NCBI GenBank assembly: GCA_030039095.1
Contig: JASHQP010000455.1
Span: 1 to 9,071 of the forward strand
DNA length: 9,071 nucleotides
Source of the DNA: Streptosporangiaceae bacterium
GTDB lineage: Bacteria > Actinomycetota > Actinomycetes > Streptosporangiales > Streptosporangiaceae
Direction of reading: 5' to 3'
The notes under the pieces were generated by a model, which worked only from the letters and a program-made list of their open reading frames with translations, ran no database searches and was not told the DNA's origin. A program made the position numbers and the translations under genes. Positions 4-7,439 of this stretch are shown here, in pieces; the first letter of the stretch is position 1; each line of letters starts with the position of its first letter.

Positions 4-29
4 AGACATCCCAGGAGCTTAGATGTCAA
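4..29 (-). promoter_or_regulatory. Right-end half of the circle-junction promoter
   Basis: A perfect TTGACA lies at 29-24 on the minus strand, pointing out of the element and overlapping the transposase stop codon. In the integrated copy it faces the flank and no good -10 follows. When the right end is joined to the left end at the CT core, a 17-bp spacer (23-7) is followed by TCTAAT. That box is built from base 6, the core CT, and 1502-1500, and is one mismatch from TATAAT. IS110 circles are known to assemble such a junction promoter to drive the bridge RNA and transposase. Confidence 0.75.
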
Positions 30-1276
30 GCCGCGACGGAAGATTGAGGGAGGTTTTCCCGGTGGCCCCATGCGGTGGCCTCGTCGTAGAGGGTGTGTGT
101 CTTCAGGCATCCGTGCAGGATGCCGACAAGCCGGTTCGCCAGGCGGCGCAGGGCGTCATTGTGTTCGATTCCGCGGCTGCGGAGGTCGTCGTAGAAGACG
201 CGGGCGCCGGCCGAGGCATTCAGGGCTGCAAAGGCCTGCGCGTGGAGCGCGTCGATGAGCCGGTCATTGTGGATGAACCGGGCGGCGACCACCTTTTTCT
301 TGCCCGAGGCGCGGGTGATCGGGGAAGTGGCGGCATAGTTCTTGCGGGCCTTGCCGTCGGCGTACCGGTGCGGGTCGTCGCCGAACTCGCCGAGCACCCG
401 GGCGCCGAGGACCGCGCCGATGCCGGGCTGGGACCGGTAGATCTCAGCGTCCGGGTGCCGGCCAAAATGCTCCCTCACCTGCTCTTCCAGCGCCTTGGCC
501 TGCGCGTTGAGGGCGGTGATCACCGCGATCAGGGCACGGGCAGTGGCGGCGTAGGCGGCGGTCAGGGCCGGGGGCTGGCCCAGCTGGTCACTGCGCAGCG
601 CCGCGAGGATGGCCGTGGTCTTGTCCGCGATGGCGCGGCGGCGGGCCCGCTTGAGCGCCGCGGCGACCTGGGCGCGAGTCAGCCGCCGTGCCCGGGCCGG
701 GTCCGGCGCCTTGGCCAGCAGCTCCAGCGCATCGGGGGCGTCCAGGTCCTCGAACGCCTCGATCGCGGCGGGGAAGTACTCACGCAGCTGATGCCGCAGC
801 CGCTGCACGGCGCGGGTGCGGTCCCAGATCAGCGTCTTGTGGGTGCGCGCCACCACCTTGATGGCCGCGGCCTGCGGGGAGTCACCCGCCGCCCGGCGCA
901 GCTGATGCGAGTCGGTGCGCACCATGTCCGCAAGCATGTGCGCGTCACCCCGATCGCTCTTGGCGCCGGACACCCCGTGCCGCTCCCGGTACCGCGACGC
1001 CTGCAGCGGGTTCACAGGGAACACCGTGTACCCCGCCGCGACCAGCGCCGCGACCCACGGGCCGCGGTCAGTCTCGATCCCGATCACCACCTCGGCATCG
1101 TCAGCGTCCTCGGGCACGAACCGGCCGATCAGCTCGTGCAACAGCGCTATCCCGGCCACCCCCTCAGACAGCCGGCGCTTCGCCAGCACCTTCCCGGCCT
1201 CGTCCATCACCTCGATGTCGTGATGGTCCTGCGCCCAGTCATCACCCGCGAACAGCCGCACACCCGCTCCCGTCAA
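26..1276 (-). CDS. IS110-family transposase (DEDD/serine bridge recombinase)
   Basis: This 416-residue protein is the recombinase that excises the element as a circle and inserts it at RNA-chosen sites. The N-terminal RuvC-like DEDD domain shows GDDWAQDHHD (Asp13), GIETDRGP (Glu68) and KSDRGDA (Asp108, Asp111). A helical, coiled-coil-prone linker covers about 130-275. The C-terminal Tnp_20 domain starts at SQPGIGAVLGARVLGEFGD (282-300), and the motif PITRASGKKK (319-328) holds the probable nucleophilic serine, about Ser324. Length and motifs are normal and I see no frameshift, so the gene is probably active. The start is TTG at 1276. GTG at 1263-1261 (VRLFAG) is an equally good choice because family members often begin there, and neither has a strong Shine-Dalgarno. 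The stop codon overlaps a TTGACA box at 29-24. The long open frame on the opposite strand is a codon-bias shadow. Confidence 0.95.
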   Translation of the reverse strand: MTGAGVRLFAGDDWAQDHHDIEVMDEAGKVLAKRRLSEGVAGIALLHELIGRFVPEDADDAEVVIGIETDRGPWVAALVAAGYTVFPVNPLQASRYRERHGVSGAKSDRGDAHMLADMVRTDSHQLRRAAGDSPQAAAIKVVARTHKTLIWDRTRAVQRLRHQLREYFPAAIEAFEDLDAPDALELLAKAPDPARARRLTRAQVAAALKRARRRAIADKTTAILAALRSDQLGQPPALTAAYAATARALIAVITALNAQAKALEEQVREHFGRHPDAEIYRSQPGIGAVLGARVLGEFGDDPHRYADGKARKNYAATSPITRASGKKKVVAARFIHNDRLIDALHAQAFAALNASAGARVFYDDLRSRGIEHNDALRRLANRLVGILHGCLKTHTLYDEATAWGHRENLPQSSVAA

Positions 1277-1302
1277 CGATGCCCAATCCGGCCGGCAGCC
1301 AG

Positions 1303-1495
1303 CGGGAGAACCATCAGCGACCTAATAAAACAGTGCTCACGCCACCCGGCGGGCACGACATCCCAGCAGCGATCAACTCTCCCGGACACCGGCAGGGGCA
1401 CGATCTCTCGTCAGGGCTCCAGGCCCAGGAGACAACAGTGCTCACCTGCCGGCGGCCACCACACCCCGAGTCTGCCGGATGGCGGACCCGCTAAC
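1303..1495 (-). ncRNA. IS110 bridge RNA (seekRNA) with target and donor loops
   Basis: Minus-strand RNA, read 5' to 3'. (1) A 5' stem-loop, CCGCCA (1485-1480) with TGGTGG (1461-1456). (2) The target-binding loop. Its basal stem is CCGGCAGG (1452-1445) with CCTGCCGG (1396-1389), continued by GCAC (1441-1438) with GTGC (1401-1398). The left guide TCTCCT is at 1432-1427, the apical hairpin GGGC-CTGGA-GCCC at 1426-1414, and the right guide with GAGAG at 1409-1405. (3) The donor-binding loop. Its basal stem is CGGGAGA (1384-1378) with TCTCCCG (1309-1303). The left donor guide CTGGGATGTC is at 1366-1357, an apical hairpin at 1356-1333, and the right donor guide TTATTAG at 1328-1322. Guide matches to the element ends and flanks are in the findings. 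The order 5' stem, target loop, donor loop, then transposase is that known for IS621 and IS110 bridge RNAs. The ends are inferred: 5' from the junction promoter, 3' from the last stem. Confidence 0.85.
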
Positions 1496-1499
1496 ACTT

Positions 1500-1504
1500 A
1501 TTAG
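1500..1504 (-). promoter_or_regulatory. Left-end half of the circle-junction promoter, with core CT
   Basis: The minus strand reads CT (1504-1503, the core) then AAT (1502-1500). Together with base T6 of the right end these form the -10 hexamer TCTAAT in the circular form only. Transcription would start near 1495-1493, just before the 5' stem of the bridge RNA. In the integrated state this half has the ligK leader upstream of it and no matching -35. Confidence 0.7.
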
Positions 1505-1514
1505 GAGAACCCAG
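1503..1514 (+). promoter_or_regulatory. ligK ribosome-binding site, rebuilt at the IS junction
   Basis: AGGAG at 1503-1507 is followed by 7 nt and then GTG at 1515. The AG at 1503-1504 is the IS core dinucleotide seen on the plus strand, and the remaining bases are original flank. At the other end of the element the plus strand reads GAG (1-3) plus the core AG (4-5). The empty site would therefore read GAGAGGAGAACCCAG before the GTG, a strong Shine-Dalgarno. The insertion thus cut inside the ribosome-binding site yet left AGGAG intact. This site also decides the ligK start: the in-frame ATG at 1479 has no Shine-Dalgarno and lies inside the element. Confidence 0.8.
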
Positions 1515-2213
1515 GTGCCGGTAGTCGTACGGAACACCCCCCGAACCGGCCTCGAGGTCGTCGACGGCCTCGCGGCCGCCGGGGTGGCGACGGTGCACGA
1601 AGCCCAGGGCCGGACCGGGCTGCTGCGGGCCGACATCCGCCCGATCTTCCGGCCAGCGCGCATCGCGGGCAACGCGCTCACCTGCGAGGTAGCGCCGGGC
1701 GACAACTGGTCGATCCACATCGCCGTGGAGCAGGCGCAGACCGGCGACGTCCTCGTGGTCACCCCGACCAGCCCGTGCGACGACGGCTACGTCGGCGACC
1801 TGCTGGCCAGCAGCCTGCTGGCACGCGGAGTCCGTGGCGTGGTCATCGACGCCGGCGTGCGCGACGTGGCCATGCTGACCGAGATGGGCTTCCCGGTCTG
1901 GTCCAGGGCAATCTCCGCCAAGGGCACGGTGAAGGAGACGCCGGGCAACGTGCAGACGCCGATCGTCTGCGCGGGCGCGTACGTGCGGCCCGGCGACGTG
2001 ATCGTCGCCGACGACGACGGAGTCGTGGTCGTGCCGCGCGAGCGGGCCGCGACCGTGCTCGGGGCGGCCCAGGACCGCGAGGCCAGCGAGGCGTCCAAGC
2101 GGCCGCGGCTGAGCGGCGGCGAGCTCGGCCTGGACATCTACGGCATGCGCGGCAGGCTCGCCGACAAGGGGCTGCGCTACGTGGACTACTCCGATGATGT
2201 GGAGTCACAGTGA
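1515..2213 (+). CDS. ligK: 4-carboxy-4-hydroxy-2-oxoadipate aldolase / oxaloacetate decarboxylase
   Basis: This is the last enzyme of the pathway. It cleaves 4-carboxy-4-hydroxy-2-oxoadipate to pyruvate and oxaloacetate, needs a divalent metal, and in this family also decarboxylates oxaloacetate. It belongs to the RraA-like class II pyruvate aldolases (LigK, GalC, ProA). From GTG 1515 the protein has 232 residues, close to the usual 225-240, and begins PVVVRN like its relatives. Visible signatures are [15 protein letters not shown] (24-38), the active-site stretch [15 protein letters not shown] (94-108), and VIDAGVRD (110-117), where Arg116 and Asp117 match the substrate-binding Arg and metal-site Asp of the family. 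It is the first gene of the operon, and its stop overlaps the galD start by 4 bp (GTGA). An upstream ATG at 1479 would add 12 residues encoded by the IS, so I reject it. Confidence 0.93.
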
Positions 2214-3316
2214 CCCAGACACCGATCCCCTGCGCCGCGATGCGCGGCGGCACGTCCAAGGGGCTGGTGTTCCTCGCCGGCAGCCTGCCCGCCGACCGCG
2301 CGACCCGCGACGCGGTGCTGCTCGCCGCGATGGGCTCCCCGGACCCCCGGGAGATCGACGGCATGGGCGGCAGCCACCCGCTGACCTCGAAGGTGGCCGT
2401 GGTGAGCGTGTCGTCCCGCGACAACGCCGACGTCGAGTATCTGTTCCTGCAGGTGTGGCCGGACCGGCCGGAAGTCTCCGACAGCCAGAACTGCGGCAAC
2501 ATGCTGGCCGCCGTCGGGCCGTTCGCGATCGAGCACGGCCTCGTGGCCGCCGCAGACCCGGTGACGCCGGTCCGGATCTGGATGCGCAACACGCAGACGC
2601 TGGCCACCGCGTTCGTGCAGACCCCCGGCGGCGGCGTCAGCTACGACGGGACCGCGCGGATCGACGGCGTGCCCGGCACCCACGCGCCGATCCCGATCGA
2701 GTTCTCCGACGTCGCCGGCTCCTCGTGCGGCGCGCTGCTGCCGACCGGCAACGTCGCCGACGTGATCGAGGGGACGAGCGTCACCTGCATCGACAACGGC
2801 ATGCCCGTGGTCTGCCTCGCAGCGTCCGACTTCGGCCTGTCCGGGCAGGAGTCACCGGCCGACCTGGAGGGCAACGGCGAGCTGACCAAGCGGGTGGAGG
2901 CGATACGGCTGGCCGCCGGGCCGCTGATGAACCTCGGCGACGTGACCGGCAAGACCGTGCCGAAGATGAGCCTGCTGTCGCCGCCCGCCCACGGCGGCAC
3001 CGTGTCGACCCGTACGTTCATCCCGCACCGCGTGCACGAGGCGATCGGGGTGTTCGGCGCGGTGTCGGTCGCCACCGCGTGCGTGCTTCCCGGCTCCCTG
3101 GCGCACGAGGTCGCAGCCTCCGGTGACCGGGCCGCGGGGACCGAAGGGTCGCTGGACATCGAGGTGGAGCACCCGACGGGCTTCTTTACCGTCACCATCG
3201 ACGTCGAGCCCGGAGCCGCCGGGCCCGTTGTCACCAGGTCGGCGCTGCTGCGCACCGCCCGCCTGCTCATGCGCGGCGAGGTCATGGTGCCCTCGTCGGT
3301 CTGGAGCCCGGCATGA
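2210..3316 (+). CDS. galD: 4-oxalomesaconate tautomerase / 1,3-allylic isomerase (PrpF family)
   Basis: This enzyme converts 4-oxalomesaconate, the product of PDC hydrolysis, into the form hydrated by LigJ. In Pseudomonas it is GalD and is described as a tautomerase. In sphingomonads it is LigU, shown to be an allylic isomerase. The 368 residues fit the PrpF fold (two diaminopimelate-epimerase-like halves). Motifs are MRGGTSKG (11-18), [15 protein letters not shown] (51-65), DSQNCGNM (91-98), [10 protein letters not shown] and LMRGEVMVP near the end. Lys61 and Cys95 sit where LigU has its proposed acid/base pair Lys66 and Cys100 (numbers recalled from the LigU work). GTG 2210 is used, with TGGAG six bases upstream, and the gene is coupled to ligK and ligJ by 4-bp overlaps. 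PrpF proteins act on several tricarboxylates, so the function rests mainly on operon context. Confidence 0.9.
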
Positions 3317-4341
3317 ATCAGATGATCATCGACTGCCACGGTCACTACACGACCGCGCCACCGCAGCACGACGCGTGGCGCAAGCGGCAGCTCGAGGCGT
3401 TCGCCGAGGGCCGTCCGGCGCCGGCCTACCCGCAGATCTCCGACGACGAGATCCGCGAGTCGATCGAGCAGAACCAGCTGCGGCTGCTGCGCGAGCGCGG
3501 CGCGGACATGACGATCTTCTCGCCGCGGGCGTCGGCCATGGCCCACCACCTGGGCGACGAGCGGGTCAGCATCGAGTGGTCCCGGGCGTGCAATGACCTC
3601 ATCGCACGGGTGGCCGGGCTGTTCCCCGACGCGTTCGTCGGCGTCTGCCAGCTGCCGCAGTCGCCAGGCGCCGGCCTGAAGGCGTCCGTGGCCGAGCTGG
3701 AGCGGTGCGTGCTCGAGCTGGGGTTCGTGGGCTGCAACCTCAACCCCGACCCGAGCGGGGGCATGTGGACCGGCCCGCCGCTCACCGACCGCTACTGGTA
3801 CCCGATCTTCGAGAAGATGACCGAGCTCGACGTGCCCGCGATGGTGCACGTGTCCGGCAGCTGCAACCCCAACTTCCACGCCACCGGCGCGCACTACATC
3901 AACGCCGACACGACCGCGTTCATGCAGTTCATCCAGGGGGACCTGTTCGCCGACTTCCCGGGCCTGCGGCTGGTGATCCCGCACGGCGGCGGGGCGGTGC
4001 CGTATCATTGGGGACGCTACCGCGGGCTCTCCGACATGCTGAAGAAGCCGCCGCTGCGCGAGCACGTCATGAACAACGTGTTCTTCGACACCTGCGTCTA
4101 CCACCAGCCGGGCATCGACCTGCTGCTGCGGGTCATCGACACCGGCAACGTGCTGTTCGGCTCGGAGATGGTGGGCGCGGTCCGCGGCATCGACCCGGAG
4201 ACCGGGCACTACTTCGACGACACCAGGCGGTACATCGACGCGGCCGGCCTGACCGAGGCCGAGCGCGCCCAGGTCTTCTCCGGCAACGCGCGGAAGGTCT
4301 ATCCGCGCCTTGACGGGGAACTTCGGGAGCGTGGTCTGTAG
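3313..4341 (+). CDS. ligJ: 4-oxalomesaconate hydratase (amidohydrolase superfamily)
   Basis: LigJ adds water to the isomerised oxalomesaconate to give 4-carboxy-4-hydroxy-2-oxoadipate, the LigK substrate. It is an amidohydrolase-fold protein used as a lyase. The 342 residues match the roughly 341 of the Sphingobium enzyme, and long blocks are recognisable: DCHGHYTTAP at the N-terminus, FSPRASAMAHH (69-79), NLNPDPSGG (142-150), HATGAHYINADTTAFMQ (189-205), IPHGGGAVPYHWGR (222-235), and FFDTCVYHQPGIDLL (257-271). The expected zinc ligands are present as His9, His11, His179 and Glu285 (in FGSEMVGAVRGIDP), with His224 as a likely catalytic residue. Each is offset by one from the numbering I recall for the solved LigJ structure. 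The ATG overlaps the galD stop (ATGA) with GGAG six bases upstream, and the stop abuts ligI directly. Confidence 0.95.
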   Translation: MNQMIIDCHGHYTTAPPQHDAWRKRQLEAFAEGRPAPAYPQISDDEIRESIEQNQLRLLRERGADMTIFSPRASAMAHHLGDERVSIEWSRACNDLIARVAGLFPDAFVGVCQLPQSPGAGLKASVAELERCVLELGFVGCNLNPDPSGGMWTGPPLTDRYWYPIFEKMTELDVPAMVHVSGSCNPNFHATGAHYINADTTAFMQFIQGDLFADFPGLRLVIPHGGGAVPYHWGRYRGLSDMLKKPPLREHVMNNVFFDTCVYHQPGIDLLLRVIDTGNVLFGSEMVGAVRGIDPETGHYFDDTRRYIDAAGLTEAERAQVFSGNARKVYPRLDGELRERGL

Positions 4342-5235
4342 ATGGGGGAGACCTTTCAGCCCGACGCCGACTGGCTGCCGTATGACCCGCACCCCGGCAA
4401 GCCGGTGTTCGTGCCGCCGCCGGGAGCCGTCGACGCGCACTGTCACGTGTTCGGGCCCGGCGACGTGTTCCCGTACGCCCCGGAGCGCAAGTACACCCCG
4501 GCCGACGCGGGCAAGGACAAGCTGTTCGCGCTGCGCGCGTTCCTGGGCTTCGAGCGCAGCGTGATCGTGCAGGCCACCTGCCACGGCGCCGACAACCGGG
4601 CCCTGGCCGACGCGCTGGTGGCCGACGGGGGCCGGTCCCGCGGCGTGGCCACGATCCGGCCAGGCGTGTCCCGGTCCGAGCTCGCCGACCTGCACGCGGC
4701 CGGCGTGCGGGCCATCCGGTTCAACTTCGTCCGCCGGCTCGCCGACCCCAAGCCGGACGGCTACTACCGGCCCCTGGTCGACCTCGTGGCCGAGTTCGGC
4801 TGGCACATCGTGGTCTACTTCGAGGCCGCGGACCTGGCCGAGCGCTGGAACCTGTTCACGAGCCTGCCCACGCCCGTGGTCGTCGACCACATGGGCCGGC
4901 CGGACGTGACGCAGCCGGTCGACGGCCCGGACTTCTCGCTGTTCCTGCGGCTGCTGGCCGAGAACGAGAACGTCTGGTCCAAGGTCAGCGGGCCGGAACG
5001 GCTGTCGAAGTCCGGGCCACCGCAGTACGCCGATGTGGTGCCGTTCGCGCAACGCGTCGTCGAGACGTTTCCGGACCGGGTGCTGTGGGGCACCGACTGG
5101 CCGCACCCGAACATGAAGAGCCACATGCCCGACGATGGCGCGCTCGTGGACGTGATCCCGCGCATCGCCCGCACCGATGACCTGCAGCGGCGGCTGCTGG
5201 TCGACAACCCCATGCGGCTTTACTGGGAGGCCTGA
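4342..5235 (+). CDS. ligI: 2-pyrone-4,6-dicarboxylate (PDC) hydrolase
   Basis: LigI opens the lactone 2-pyrone-4,6-dicarboxylate to 4-oxalomesaconate. It is an amidohydrolase-superfamily enzyme that works without a bound metal. The 297 residues agree with the 293 of Sphingobium LigI. Residues matching its active site are visible: DAHCHVFG (His33, His35), Tyr51, RFNFVRR (Arg126, Arg132), Tyr159 in VVYFEA, VDHMGRPDV (His183), and WGTDWPHPNM (Asp252, the catalytic acid/base). The ending DNPMRLYW is also typical. The ATG follows the ligJ TAG with no gap. GGGAG at 4325-4329 is 12 bases upstream, rather far, so translation probably depends on coupling with ligJ. The stop and the ligA start share one base (TGATG). 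Confidence 0.95.
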   Translation: MGETFQPDADWLPYDPHPGKPVFVPPPGAVDAHCHVFGPGDVFPYAPERKYTPADAGKDKLFALRAFLGFERSVIVQATCHGADNRALADALVADGGRSRGVATIRPGVSRSELADLHAAGVRAIRFNFVRRLADPKPDGYYRPLVDLVAEFGWHIVVYFEAADLAERWNLFTSLPTPVVVDHMGRPDVTQPVDGPDFSLFLRLLAENENVWSKVSGPERLSKSGPPQYADVVPFAQRVVETFPDRVLWGTDWPHPNMKSHMPDDGALVDVIPRIARTDDLQRRLLVDNPMRLYWEA

Positions 5236-5630
5236 TGGCGACCGATTACACCTCAGAGTTCGATGACATCCCCGGTACCCGCGTGTTCACCGCGCGGCGG
5301 GCCAAGCAGGGCTTCGGCCTGAACGAGTTCTGCATGAGCCTGATGAAGCCGGAGAACCGGGAGCGGTTCAAGGCCGGCGAGCGCGCCTACCTCGACGAGT
5401 GGCCGATGACCGAGGGCCAGAAGCAGGCCGTGCTCGACCGGGATTACAACGCCATGCTCGACCAGGGCGGCAACATCTACTTCCTGGCCAAGATCTTCGC
5501 CACCGACGGGCTCAGCTACCTGCAGGCGGTGTCGACGATGACCGGCATGGCCATCGACGATTACCAGCAGATGATGATGTCCGGCGGGCGGTCACCCGAG
5601 GGCTGGCGCTCGGTGAAGGACGGTGACTAG
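5235..5630 (+). CDS. ligA: Protocatechuate 4,5-dioxygenase, alpha (small) subunit
   Basis: This is the small subunit of the extradiol (class III) dioxygenase LigAB, which cleaves protocatechuate between C4 and C5. LigA packs over the LigB active site and helps shape the substrate pocket; it binds no iron. The 131 residues fall within the family (about 120-140) and carry its hallmark blocks: EFDDIPGTRVFTA (8-20), FCMSLMKPENRERF (32-45), YLDEWPMTEGQK, RDYNAMLDQGGNIYFLAK, and SMTGM near the C-terminus. The N-terminus is somewhat shorter than in Sphingobium LigA. GGGAGG four bases before the ATG is a strong Shine-Dalgarno lying within the end of ligI. The stop abuts ligB. The match to LigA proper rather than a fused DesZ/GalA-type enzyme supports protocatechuate as the substrate. 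Confidence 0.95.
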   Translation: MATDYTSEFDDIPGTRVFTARRAKQGFGLNEFCMSLMKPENRERFKAGERAYLDEWPMTEGQKQAVLDRDYNAMLDQGGNIYFLAKIFATDGLSYLQAVSTMTGMAIDDYQQMMMSGGRSPEGWRSVKDGD

Positions 5631-6485
<855 letters not shown>

Positions 6486-6488
6486 CCC

Positions 6489-7439
6489 ATGAGAATCGCA
6501 GTCGCCGGGGCCGGCGCCTTCGGCATCAAGCACCTCGACGGTCTCGCCCAGATCGACGGCGTCACGGTCACGTCCATCGTCAGCCGCCGGCAGGAGCAGG
6601 CCGAGGAGGTTGCGCGCAAATATGGCGCGGACCAGGCCACCACCGACCTCGGGGAGGTACTCGCCCGCGACGACGTGGACGCGGTCATCTTGTGCACCCC
6701 GACCCAGATGCACGCCGCGCAGTCGATCGCGGTCATGCAGGCGGGCAAGCACGTCCAGGTGGAGATTCCGCTCGCGGACAGCTGGACGGACGCGCTCGGG
6801 GTCGACCGGGTGCAGCGGGAGACCGGCCTGACGTGCATGGTCGGGCACACCCGCCGGTTCAACCCCTCCCACCAGTGGATCCACCGCCGGATCGGCGCCG
6901 GGGAGCTCTCCATCCAGCAGATGGACGTGCAGACGTACTTCTTCCGCCGCAAGAACCTGAACGCACTCGGCGAGCCGCGCAGCTGGACCGACAACCTGCT
7001 CTGGCACCACGCCGCGCACACCGTGGACCTGTTCCAGTACCAGACCGGCGAGGACGTCGAGATCGCGCACGCGGTGCAGGGGCCGCTGCATCCCGAGCTG
7101 GGCATCGCGATGGACATGTCGATTCAGCTGCGCACGCCGGCGGGCCGCGTCGCCACGCTGTCGCTCAGCTTCAACAACGACGGCCCGCTGGGCACGTTCT
7201 TCCGCTACATCTGCGACAACGGCACCTACATCGCCCGGTACGACGACCTGGTCACCGGGCGGGAGGAACCGGTCGACGTGTCCGCGGTCGACGTGTCGGC
7301 CAACGGGATCGAGCTGCAGGACCGCGAGTTCGTCGCCGCGATCCGCGAGGGCCGCGAGCCGAACTCCAGCGTGGCCTCGGTGCTGCCCTGCTACCGGGTG
7401 CTCGGCGAGCTTGACACGGAGCTGGCCCGGGGGGTCTAG
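6489..7439 (+). CDS. ligC: 4-carboxy-2-hydroxymuconate-6-semialdehyde dehydrogenase
   Basis: LigC oxidises the ring-cleavage product, probably as its cyclic hemiacetal, to 2-pyrone-4,6-dicarboxylate. It is a Gfo/Idh/MocA-fold enzyme of 316 residues, against about 315 in Sphingobium. The Rossmann motif is GAGAFG (7-12). SRR at 32-34, after the second strand, suggests NADP+ rather than NAD+. CTPTQMHA (69-76) and VEIPLADSW (91-99) follow; Glu-Ile-Pro replaces the usual Glu-Lys-Pro of the superfamily, as I recall for LigC itself. VGHTRRFNPSHQW (118-130) and LLWHHAAHTVDLF (170-182) line the substrate site. It starts 3 bp after ligB, with AAGGA 13 bases upstream, and is the last gene of the operon. 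Its place after ligAB rather than beside ligI breaks the otherwise roughly reverse-pathway gene order. Confidence 0.95.
   Translation: MRIAVAGAGAFGIKHLDGLAQIDGVTVTSIVSRRQEQAEEVARKYGADQATTDLGEVLARDDVDAVILCTPTQMHAAQSIAVMQAGKHVQVEIPLADSWTDALGVDRVQRETGLTCMVGHTRRFNPSHQWIHRRIGAGELSIQQMDVQTYFFRRKNLNALGEPRSWTDNLLWHHAAHTVDLFQYQTGEDVEIAHAVQGPLHPELGIAMDMSIQLRTPAGRVATLSLSFNNDGPLGTFFRYICDNGTYIARYDDLVTGREEPVDVSAVDVSANGIELQDREFVAAIREGREPNSSVASVLPCYRVLGELDTELARGV

Follow-up and report, generated by a model that had tools for sequence, protein, structure and literature searches.

An IS110-group insertion sequence from Streptosporangiaceae with a predicted bridge RNA whose target loop very probably specifies a host Shine-Dalgarno site

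It has long been known that IS900 inserts between the ribosome-binding site (RBS) and the start codon. Its published target motif is CATGNNNNNNTCTCCTT (CATGN6TCTCCTT), an antisense ORF, hed, runs over the whole element, and the element is rarely found inside coding sequences (PMC8141618, whose text contains neither "Shine" nor "ribosom"). For IS621, two papers describe the mechanism and layout of the bridge RNA (PMC11208160, PMC11208158), in which the core dinucleotide is present in all four pairings (PMC11208160). In our own reading, the IS900 motif would correspond to a Shine-Dalgarno (SD) sequence plus start codon in the same orientation as in the element described here, a likeness that rests on the published motif and not on an alignment of the IS900 sequence. 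The literature that we searched, mainly open access and without bioRxiv, yielded no paper that treats bridge RNA and IS900 together and no statement that bridge RNAs target SD sequences; insertion at RBSs is already known, and it is the RNA basis of this target class that we did not find spelled out there.

The window, by which we mean the whole 9,071-nucleotide stretch analysed, contains an insertion sequence of the IS110 group with a predicted bridge RNA in its left end, an assignment that our comparisons confirmed. The target loop of this RNA very probably specifies a host SD site, with the element entering an RBS antisense to the gene. The features on which the argument draws are these:

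4..5, minus strand: right core CT (element sense); GGGATGT and then CT stand at the right end
5..25, minus strand: right end (left donor), very short, 21 nt from stop codon to core, read from the sequence
26..1276, minus strand: IS110-group transposase, 416 aa, TTG start, from Pfam matches and alignment to the IS621 and ISCro4 recombinases
1303..1490, minus strand: predicted bridge RNA, 5′ stem-loop to donor-loop base, from a profile match over the entire left end and stem covariation
1303..1309, minus strand: donor-loop base, 3′ arm (helix 5)
1322..1328, minus strand: right donor guide (RDG) TTATTAG, which tracks the left end at positions 6 and 7
1333..1356, minus strand: hairpin capping the donor loop (helices 6 and 7), with covariation in helix 7 only
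1357..1365, minus strand: left donor guide (LDG) TGGGATGTC, the part conserved in 49 elements, matching right end 13-5
1378..1384, minus strand: donor-loop base, 5′ arm (helix 5), 4 of 7 pairs changed on both sides
1389..1396, minus strand: target-loop base, 3′ arm (helix 1)
1405..1413, minus strand: right target guide (RTG) TGACGAGAG, compared with the right target in 83 elements, window excluded
1414..1426, minus strand: hairpin capping the target loop (helix 3), two pairs changed on both sides
1427..1434, minus strand: left target guide (LTG) TGTCTCCT, core CT at its end, last six bases matching the flank
1445..1452, minus strand: target-loop base, 5′ arm (helix 1), 7 of 8 pairs changed on both sides in 48 sequences
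1467..1490, minus strand: 5′ stem-loop, from the fold of the single sequence
1503..1504, minus strand: left core CT (element sense)
1503..1507, plus strand: SD sequence AGGAG of the gene that follows, in which the opening AG is the core, read from the sequence
1515..2213, plus strand: RraA-like aldolase gene, GTG start (Pfam RraA-like, 7.4e-42), with the element at its SD

The transposase matches the Pfam families DEDD_Tnp_IS110 (2.8e-36) and Transposase_20 (1.2e-09), and the recombinases of IS621 and ISCro4 are its sole matches among solved structures at E 0.01. In the alignment, judged by eye, it retains the D, E, D and D residues and the SG, with the catalytic serine, of the Tnp domain; the predicted combination of a DEDD RuvC-like domain and a Tnp domain with a serine is a feature of the IS110 group. 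So is the layout of the element, with a non-coding left end of 228 nt (1277-1504) that carries the RNA and a right end of 21 nt.

The close relatives that we found are actinobacterial. One scan of GTDB genomes gave 79 loci, and further loci from genome searches and plasmid records brought the set to 211 sequences including the window, with 200 hits to a left-end profile that was itself built with the window included. Removal of 34 partial, 36 duplicate and 1 flankless hit left 129 distinct elements, or 128 once the broken element L017 was set aside. Order-level searches found the left end in 61 of 249 genomes for the order that includes host genome G005 (E 1e-10), in 5 of 293 for that of G006 (E 1e-20) and, at E 1e-12, in 11 of 298 for that of G011 and 7 of 200 for that of G004, the last two sets having genomes in common. 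In viral contigs the target loop had no exact match and the transposase no relative, and the phages searched gave one distant match only. At gathering thresholds, Rfam matched no bridge RNA in the window. In other copies the ends lie at homologous places, as the boundaries first proposed for this element would have them: the left-end core is CT in 122 of 128 elements, and the core-to-core length has a median of 1494.5 (range 1253-1797, n=84). The CT core had been placed at 1504-1503 and 5-4 in the initial annotation, and the letters there are as it gave them. The right ends of relatives were located by a consensus pattern that includes CT, so that CT there is not independent evidence; the bases past CT in this pattern were left unused.

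Both donor guides stand out in the window alone. RNA 1370-1357, GCTGCTGGGATGTC, matches the right end, GCTCCTGGGATGTC, at 13 of 14 positions, a score reached in 0 of 2000 shuffles, and TTATTAG is the exact complement of CTAATAA at the left end (1504-1498), 7 of 7 positions, reached in 1 of 2000. The initial annotation had proposed both matches. Its 14-nt left match has the right letters and is too long, the part conserved among 49 aligned elements being approximately TGGGATG(T/A)C; its right match stands as described and also follows the left end in relatives. Although position 6 is occupied by three different letters, the right donor guide and the left end agree there in 49 of 49 elements. 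They agree at position 7 in 44 of 49; over both positions 93 of 98 cells follow the left end, against 50.7 after shuffling (0 of 2000 shuffles). The right donor guide thus matches the left end fully. The left donor guide matches the right end, but of the core dinucleotide it takes in the first base only. The mismatch at the second core base (G1356), which had been pointed out before, is a trait of the lineage, since the left donor guide reads CG at the core in 122 of 126 parsed elements (128 examined, 2 unparsed). G1356 can pair with C1333 in the capping stem, which begins with a G-C pair in all 48 sequences. For the donor and structure counts, 4 of 53 rows were excluded as broken or misaligned, and one further duplicate was excluded from the structure count.

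Within one sequence the predicted stems and target guides are weakly above chance. A perfect 8-bp stem with a loop of 30-120 turned up in 152 of 1000 dinucleotide shuffles, and 35 of 1000 had at least four 7-bp stems; TCTCCT occurred anywhere in 98 of 2000 shuffles and GAGAG in 939 of 2000. The energy of the fold is not exceptional (z -0.90; 38 of 200 shuffles are as stable or more so), and we rejected single-sequence folding as proof of an RNA on this value. Since only the donor guides hold on the window alone, the remainder had to be established through relatives, and the proof is comparative.

The loop bases consist of CCGGCAGG/CCTGCCGG around the target loop and CGGGAGA/TCTCCCG around the donor loop; all stem and guide letters read earlier are correct. 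In alignment A1, 48 sequences comprising 47 relatives and the window, 94.4% of cells in the named structure are paired, against 86.7% after shuffling and 39-54% when the structure is slid, the slid control being biased towards the window since the structure was drawn on it. Seventeen pairs and 122 cells are changed on both sides, against 10.3 and 35.0 after shuffling, and 0 of 500 shuffles scored as high on all five structure measures, with the caveat that related sequences may exceed shuffles in a covariation measure. The covariation that the initial annotation had named as a check on its stems is therefore present, in the target-loop base, the donor-loop base and both capping hairpins. RNAalifold, given no structure, found 31 pairs, 18 of them double-changed, and recovered the same two loop bases and caps, placing the inner donor stem in a different register. 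The inner GCAC/GTGC pairs are near-invariant and so say nothing about covariation, and the donor-loop base is the weakest stem, with 89.6% of cells paired and one column pair failing in 12 of 48. The alignment thus shows two loops with covarying stems, as expected of a bridge RNA. GAGCAC (1438-1443 and 1333-1338, minus strand) lies upstream of both the left target guide and the right donor guide, and GTGCC (1397-1401 and 1352-1356, minus strand) lies downstream of both the right target guide and the left donor guide; these form a repeated, highly conserved frame around the guides and possibly mark protein contacts.

Could the left end be no more than a structured or antisense region, without a guide RNA? 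An antisense ORF of 493 aa (23-1504, plus strand) does span the whole element, ending with TAG in the left core, and IS900 has a similar one, hed, which it resembles (PMC8141618). We dismissed this ORF as a gene, as codon-preserving shuffling of the transposase gene left the antisense frame open over its full length 500 times out of 500; codon usage explains an antisense frame over the transposase gene. As such a reading would also leave the covariation of guides and stems without an explanation, we give it almost no credence beside a bridge RNA. The sole Rfam hit in the window is Ms_AS-4, an actinobacterial sRNA, at 350-431 (plus strand, 67.9 bits), antisense to the transposase; at a guess, this family may derive from such transposase genes.

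The two target guides were read in the initial annotation as TCTCCT, equal to 1508-1503, and GAGAG, complementary to 5-1, of which the core and three flank bases are visible in the window; both readings are right to the letter. Among the 83 of 128 elements with a confident right end and 9 bases of flank, the right target guide matches the right flank at 4.48 of 5 non-core nucleotides (shuffled 2.02), or 4.26 (shuffled 1.89) with one element per distinct guide (39). Within the 21 elements of the CTTTC class, the next two guide positions match at 1.43 of 2 (shuffled 0.74). The left target guide matches the left target at 4.92 of 7 non-core nucleotides over all 128 elements (shuffled 2.35), at 4.96 with one element per distinct guide (90; shuffled 2.37) and at 4.21 within CTTTC (34; shuffled 3.00). 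The register of the left guide was taken from the capping hairpin, with lengths outside 11-14 reset to 11 after the first results had been seen. Each of these scores was reached by 0 of 2000 shuffles; the left guides are nonetheless imperfect, positions -7 and -6 matching at 0.44 and 0.48. Within one genome, copies that have the same guide agree in most of the letters that it specifies close to the core. Exceptions are the right side in L042 and in L120, both with right-end scores below the cut, the left side in L104, and a single base in L178. A comparison of other copies' target sites with their guides, which had been proposed as a check, thus finds sites that follow the guides, and the target loop is predicted to pair with the insertion site on both strands and across the core, as a bridge RNA should.

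Past CT, copies that carry the same guide have about 5-7 bases in common, and these might belong to the right end of the element, so that the right target guide would be a second donor guide. An empty site bears on this. When its two flanks are joined, L169 has matches in 37 of the 80 genomes of its genus, counting its own, and nine such loci that we aligned are all contiguous across the junction. Three of them, in congeners (L252-L254), read TTCTTCCTGAAAGGACCTTCCGGTG as in the joined flanks, with the core present once and nothing lost or gained; in the other six the motif has diverged. It follows that for L169 the right-target bases are host DNA, and its boundaries and core are confirmed, with insertion free of target duplication, as in the IS110 group. 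The base is small, one site of one guide class: for L010, two of four aligned loci span the junction, neither with an identical motif, and for L128, where the matches are mostly gene-side, we found no identical site. As in the three congeners of G835 a single CT links the left flank directly to the right-target bases, the second-donor reading is refuted for L169, and in other copies the shared run ends at about the sixth or seventh base; overall we consider it very improbable, and a right guide that reads host DNA is preferred.

What the target is was missed in the initial annotation, which did not recognize the site as an SD sequence. In the window, AGGAG lies seven bases upstream of the GTG at 1515, and the element adjoins the SD of the first gene of a run. 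In 30 of 30 aligned homologues of this RraA-like gene (30 loci out of 78 matching genomes), a start codon, 29 times ATG or GTG and once TTG, lies no more than three codons from the position of this GTG. The run (1515-7439, plus strand) encodes an RraA-like aldolase, a PrpF-like isomerase, two Amidohydro_2 proteins, LigA, LigB and a Gfo/Idh dehydrogenase; it resembles a protocatechuate 4,5-cleavage (lig/pmd) operon. The guides CTCCT and CTTTC (CTCTC in the window) resemble the anti-SD tail of 16S rRNA, and in host sense CTTTC and CTCTC guides give GAAAG-GAG or GAGAG-GAG, an SD sequence. The element-sense consensus CTCC-TTTC has the letters of the 16S 3′ end, from which the right guide CTCTC of the window is one base off. 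An exact copy of the 16S-like 3′ end GGATCACCTCCTTTCT is present in 2 of the 6 host genomes searched, and its absence from the others may reflect missing rRNA or a differing end.

Among the 36 elements with CTTTC or CTCTC guides, the window included, 16 have a start codon 8-15 nt past the core A followed by an ORF of at least 150 aa, compared with 2 of 92 elements with other guides; 20 of the 36 have no such start codon and ORF. With a threshold of at least 60 aa the counts are 17 of 36 and 11 of 92. Fisher tests give 4e-5 (60 aa) and 8e-9 (150 aa), which are indicative only, as the elements are related. At 100 aa or more, 16 of 36 compares with 3-9 of 36 in 11 windows shifted downstream. Of the genes of at least 150 aa outside the window, 11 of 15 have a Pfam match at E 0.001, 10 of them above the curated cut-off, and the Pfam domain starts at residues 3, 3, 4 and 8 in L007, L006, L018 and L073 and at residue 13 in L010. 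This class was adopted after the result of a looser one was known. In the looser class (all CTTT and CTCT guides, n 57), 18 of 57 elements had an ATG at 8-16 nt; 14 control windows gave 2-8, and elements with other guides gave 5 of 69. Once GTG was counted as well, the figure was 28 of 57, with 8-21 in the control windows. The looser class was dropped because it mixes in CTTTT guides, which have another target. In 400 kb of G003, 7 of 18 GAAAGGA sites are followed by a start codon and an ORF of 60 aa or more, compared with a fraction of 0.140 for 3288 AGGA sites and 0.142 for 239 GAAAG sites; in this small sample the full motif, and not GAAAG alone, is enriched at RBSs.

It is also conceivable that the bridge RNA is real but does no aiming at SD sites, and that insertions within genes were lost and those in front of genes kept. 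Selection does filter natural insertions, and IS900 is seldom found within coding sequences (PMC8141618). However, elements of the same lineage with other guides are seldom so placed (the 2 of 92 above, against 16 of 36), the right flanks track the guide letter by letter, and the GAAAG half lies upstream of the retained AGGAG, where it would not obviously be required for survival. We regard survival as an improbable explanation of the SD link. The likely alternative is that bridge RNAs of this actinobacterial IS110 lineage mimic the anti-SD tail (CTCCTTTC, split across the two target guides) and so seek RBSs, which would also explain the IS900 motif.

The nearest kin of the transposase, in a quick tree of 87 rows, are L001 and L002 (both CTTTC), L123 (CTAGC) and L003 (CTTGG), which group with the window with a support of 100. 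L003 (CTTGGGC) and L123 (CTAGCGG) carry other target guides with matching flanks, and have a donor loop and right end of the same kind; compared with the window, they appear to be cases of natural retargeting with the donor loop retained. Nine changes of the SD-guide label in the tree were not used as a count of switches, because the tree is quick and five of its rows have branches above 7, probably since the longest frame there is not the transposase. Other guide classes are CTGACCC, CTGCCGC and CTGTCAA. The CTGCCGC class (L023, L028, L031-L036, L046, L054, L068 and others) has hosts including Nocardioides, Micromonospora, Actinoplanes and Ornithinimicrobium, and its targets mostly have CAT, GAT or CTT ahead of CT-GCCGC. 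The left flanks of the CTTTT-guide elements L015, L030 and L201 share a CCGGT-like sequence beyond the guide, which suggests one specific repeated target. ATG directly follows the core AG on its 3′ side in 9 of 69 elements with non-CTTT/CTCT guides. Counting against the SD reading, the left flank of L153 (reverse strand), GGTTCGAGTCCC, is like a tRNA T-arm; ARAGORN calls no tRNA at the locus.

How would the element move? The guides, the stems, the target rule and one relative's empty site were demonstrated by comparing sequences; expression of the RNA, a circle intermediate and catalysis would follow by analogy with IS621. The donor loop would pair with the element's own ends, TGGGATGT-CT at the right (C alone of the core being matched) and CT-AATAA at the left, and the target loop with both strands of the host site, TCTC-CT-CTC in element sense and GAG-AG-GAGA in host sense, the candidate target sequence being GACGAGAGGAGA. 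The left target guide resembles the 16S anti-SD tail and its right counterpart the mRNA side, and the recombinase would join donor and target at the CT core. The element would enter the RBS antisense to the gene, leaving AGGAG and the start codon attached to it. Such insertions are thus predicted to keep AGGAG and the start codon on the gene and to sever the upstream sequence. The RBS is a target present ahead of many genes, and the lineage offers a natural case in which a bridge RNA predicts an insertion site that a relative's empty site confirms. It also offers a mechanism for RBS insertion of the kind suggested by the IS900 motif, and the natural differences in targeting between close relatives should help to learn which guide positions matter.

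Insertion of the SD type is not new, since the published motif of IS900 has the same form. The seekRNA of IS1111/IS110 elements is the same RNA concept under a different name, described in a paper whose abstract stresses IS1111 elements with subterminal inverted repeats (PMC11187229). The closest counterpart is IS621, as described in PMC11208160 and PMC11208158: both elements have a DEDD/Tnp-serine recombinase, an RNA in the left end and a CT core at both ends, and in both a 5′ stem-loop is followed by target and donor loops in the LTG/RTG/LDG/RDG layout. The transposase of the window, however, is only distantly similar to that of IS621 (E 2.2e-09). Unlike in IS621, the right target guide of the window's lineage reads the core plus about 5 nt, and the second core base of the left donor guide is G in nearly all parsed elements. 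Finally, whereas the target of IS621 is a REP element, that of the element in the window would be an SD sequence.
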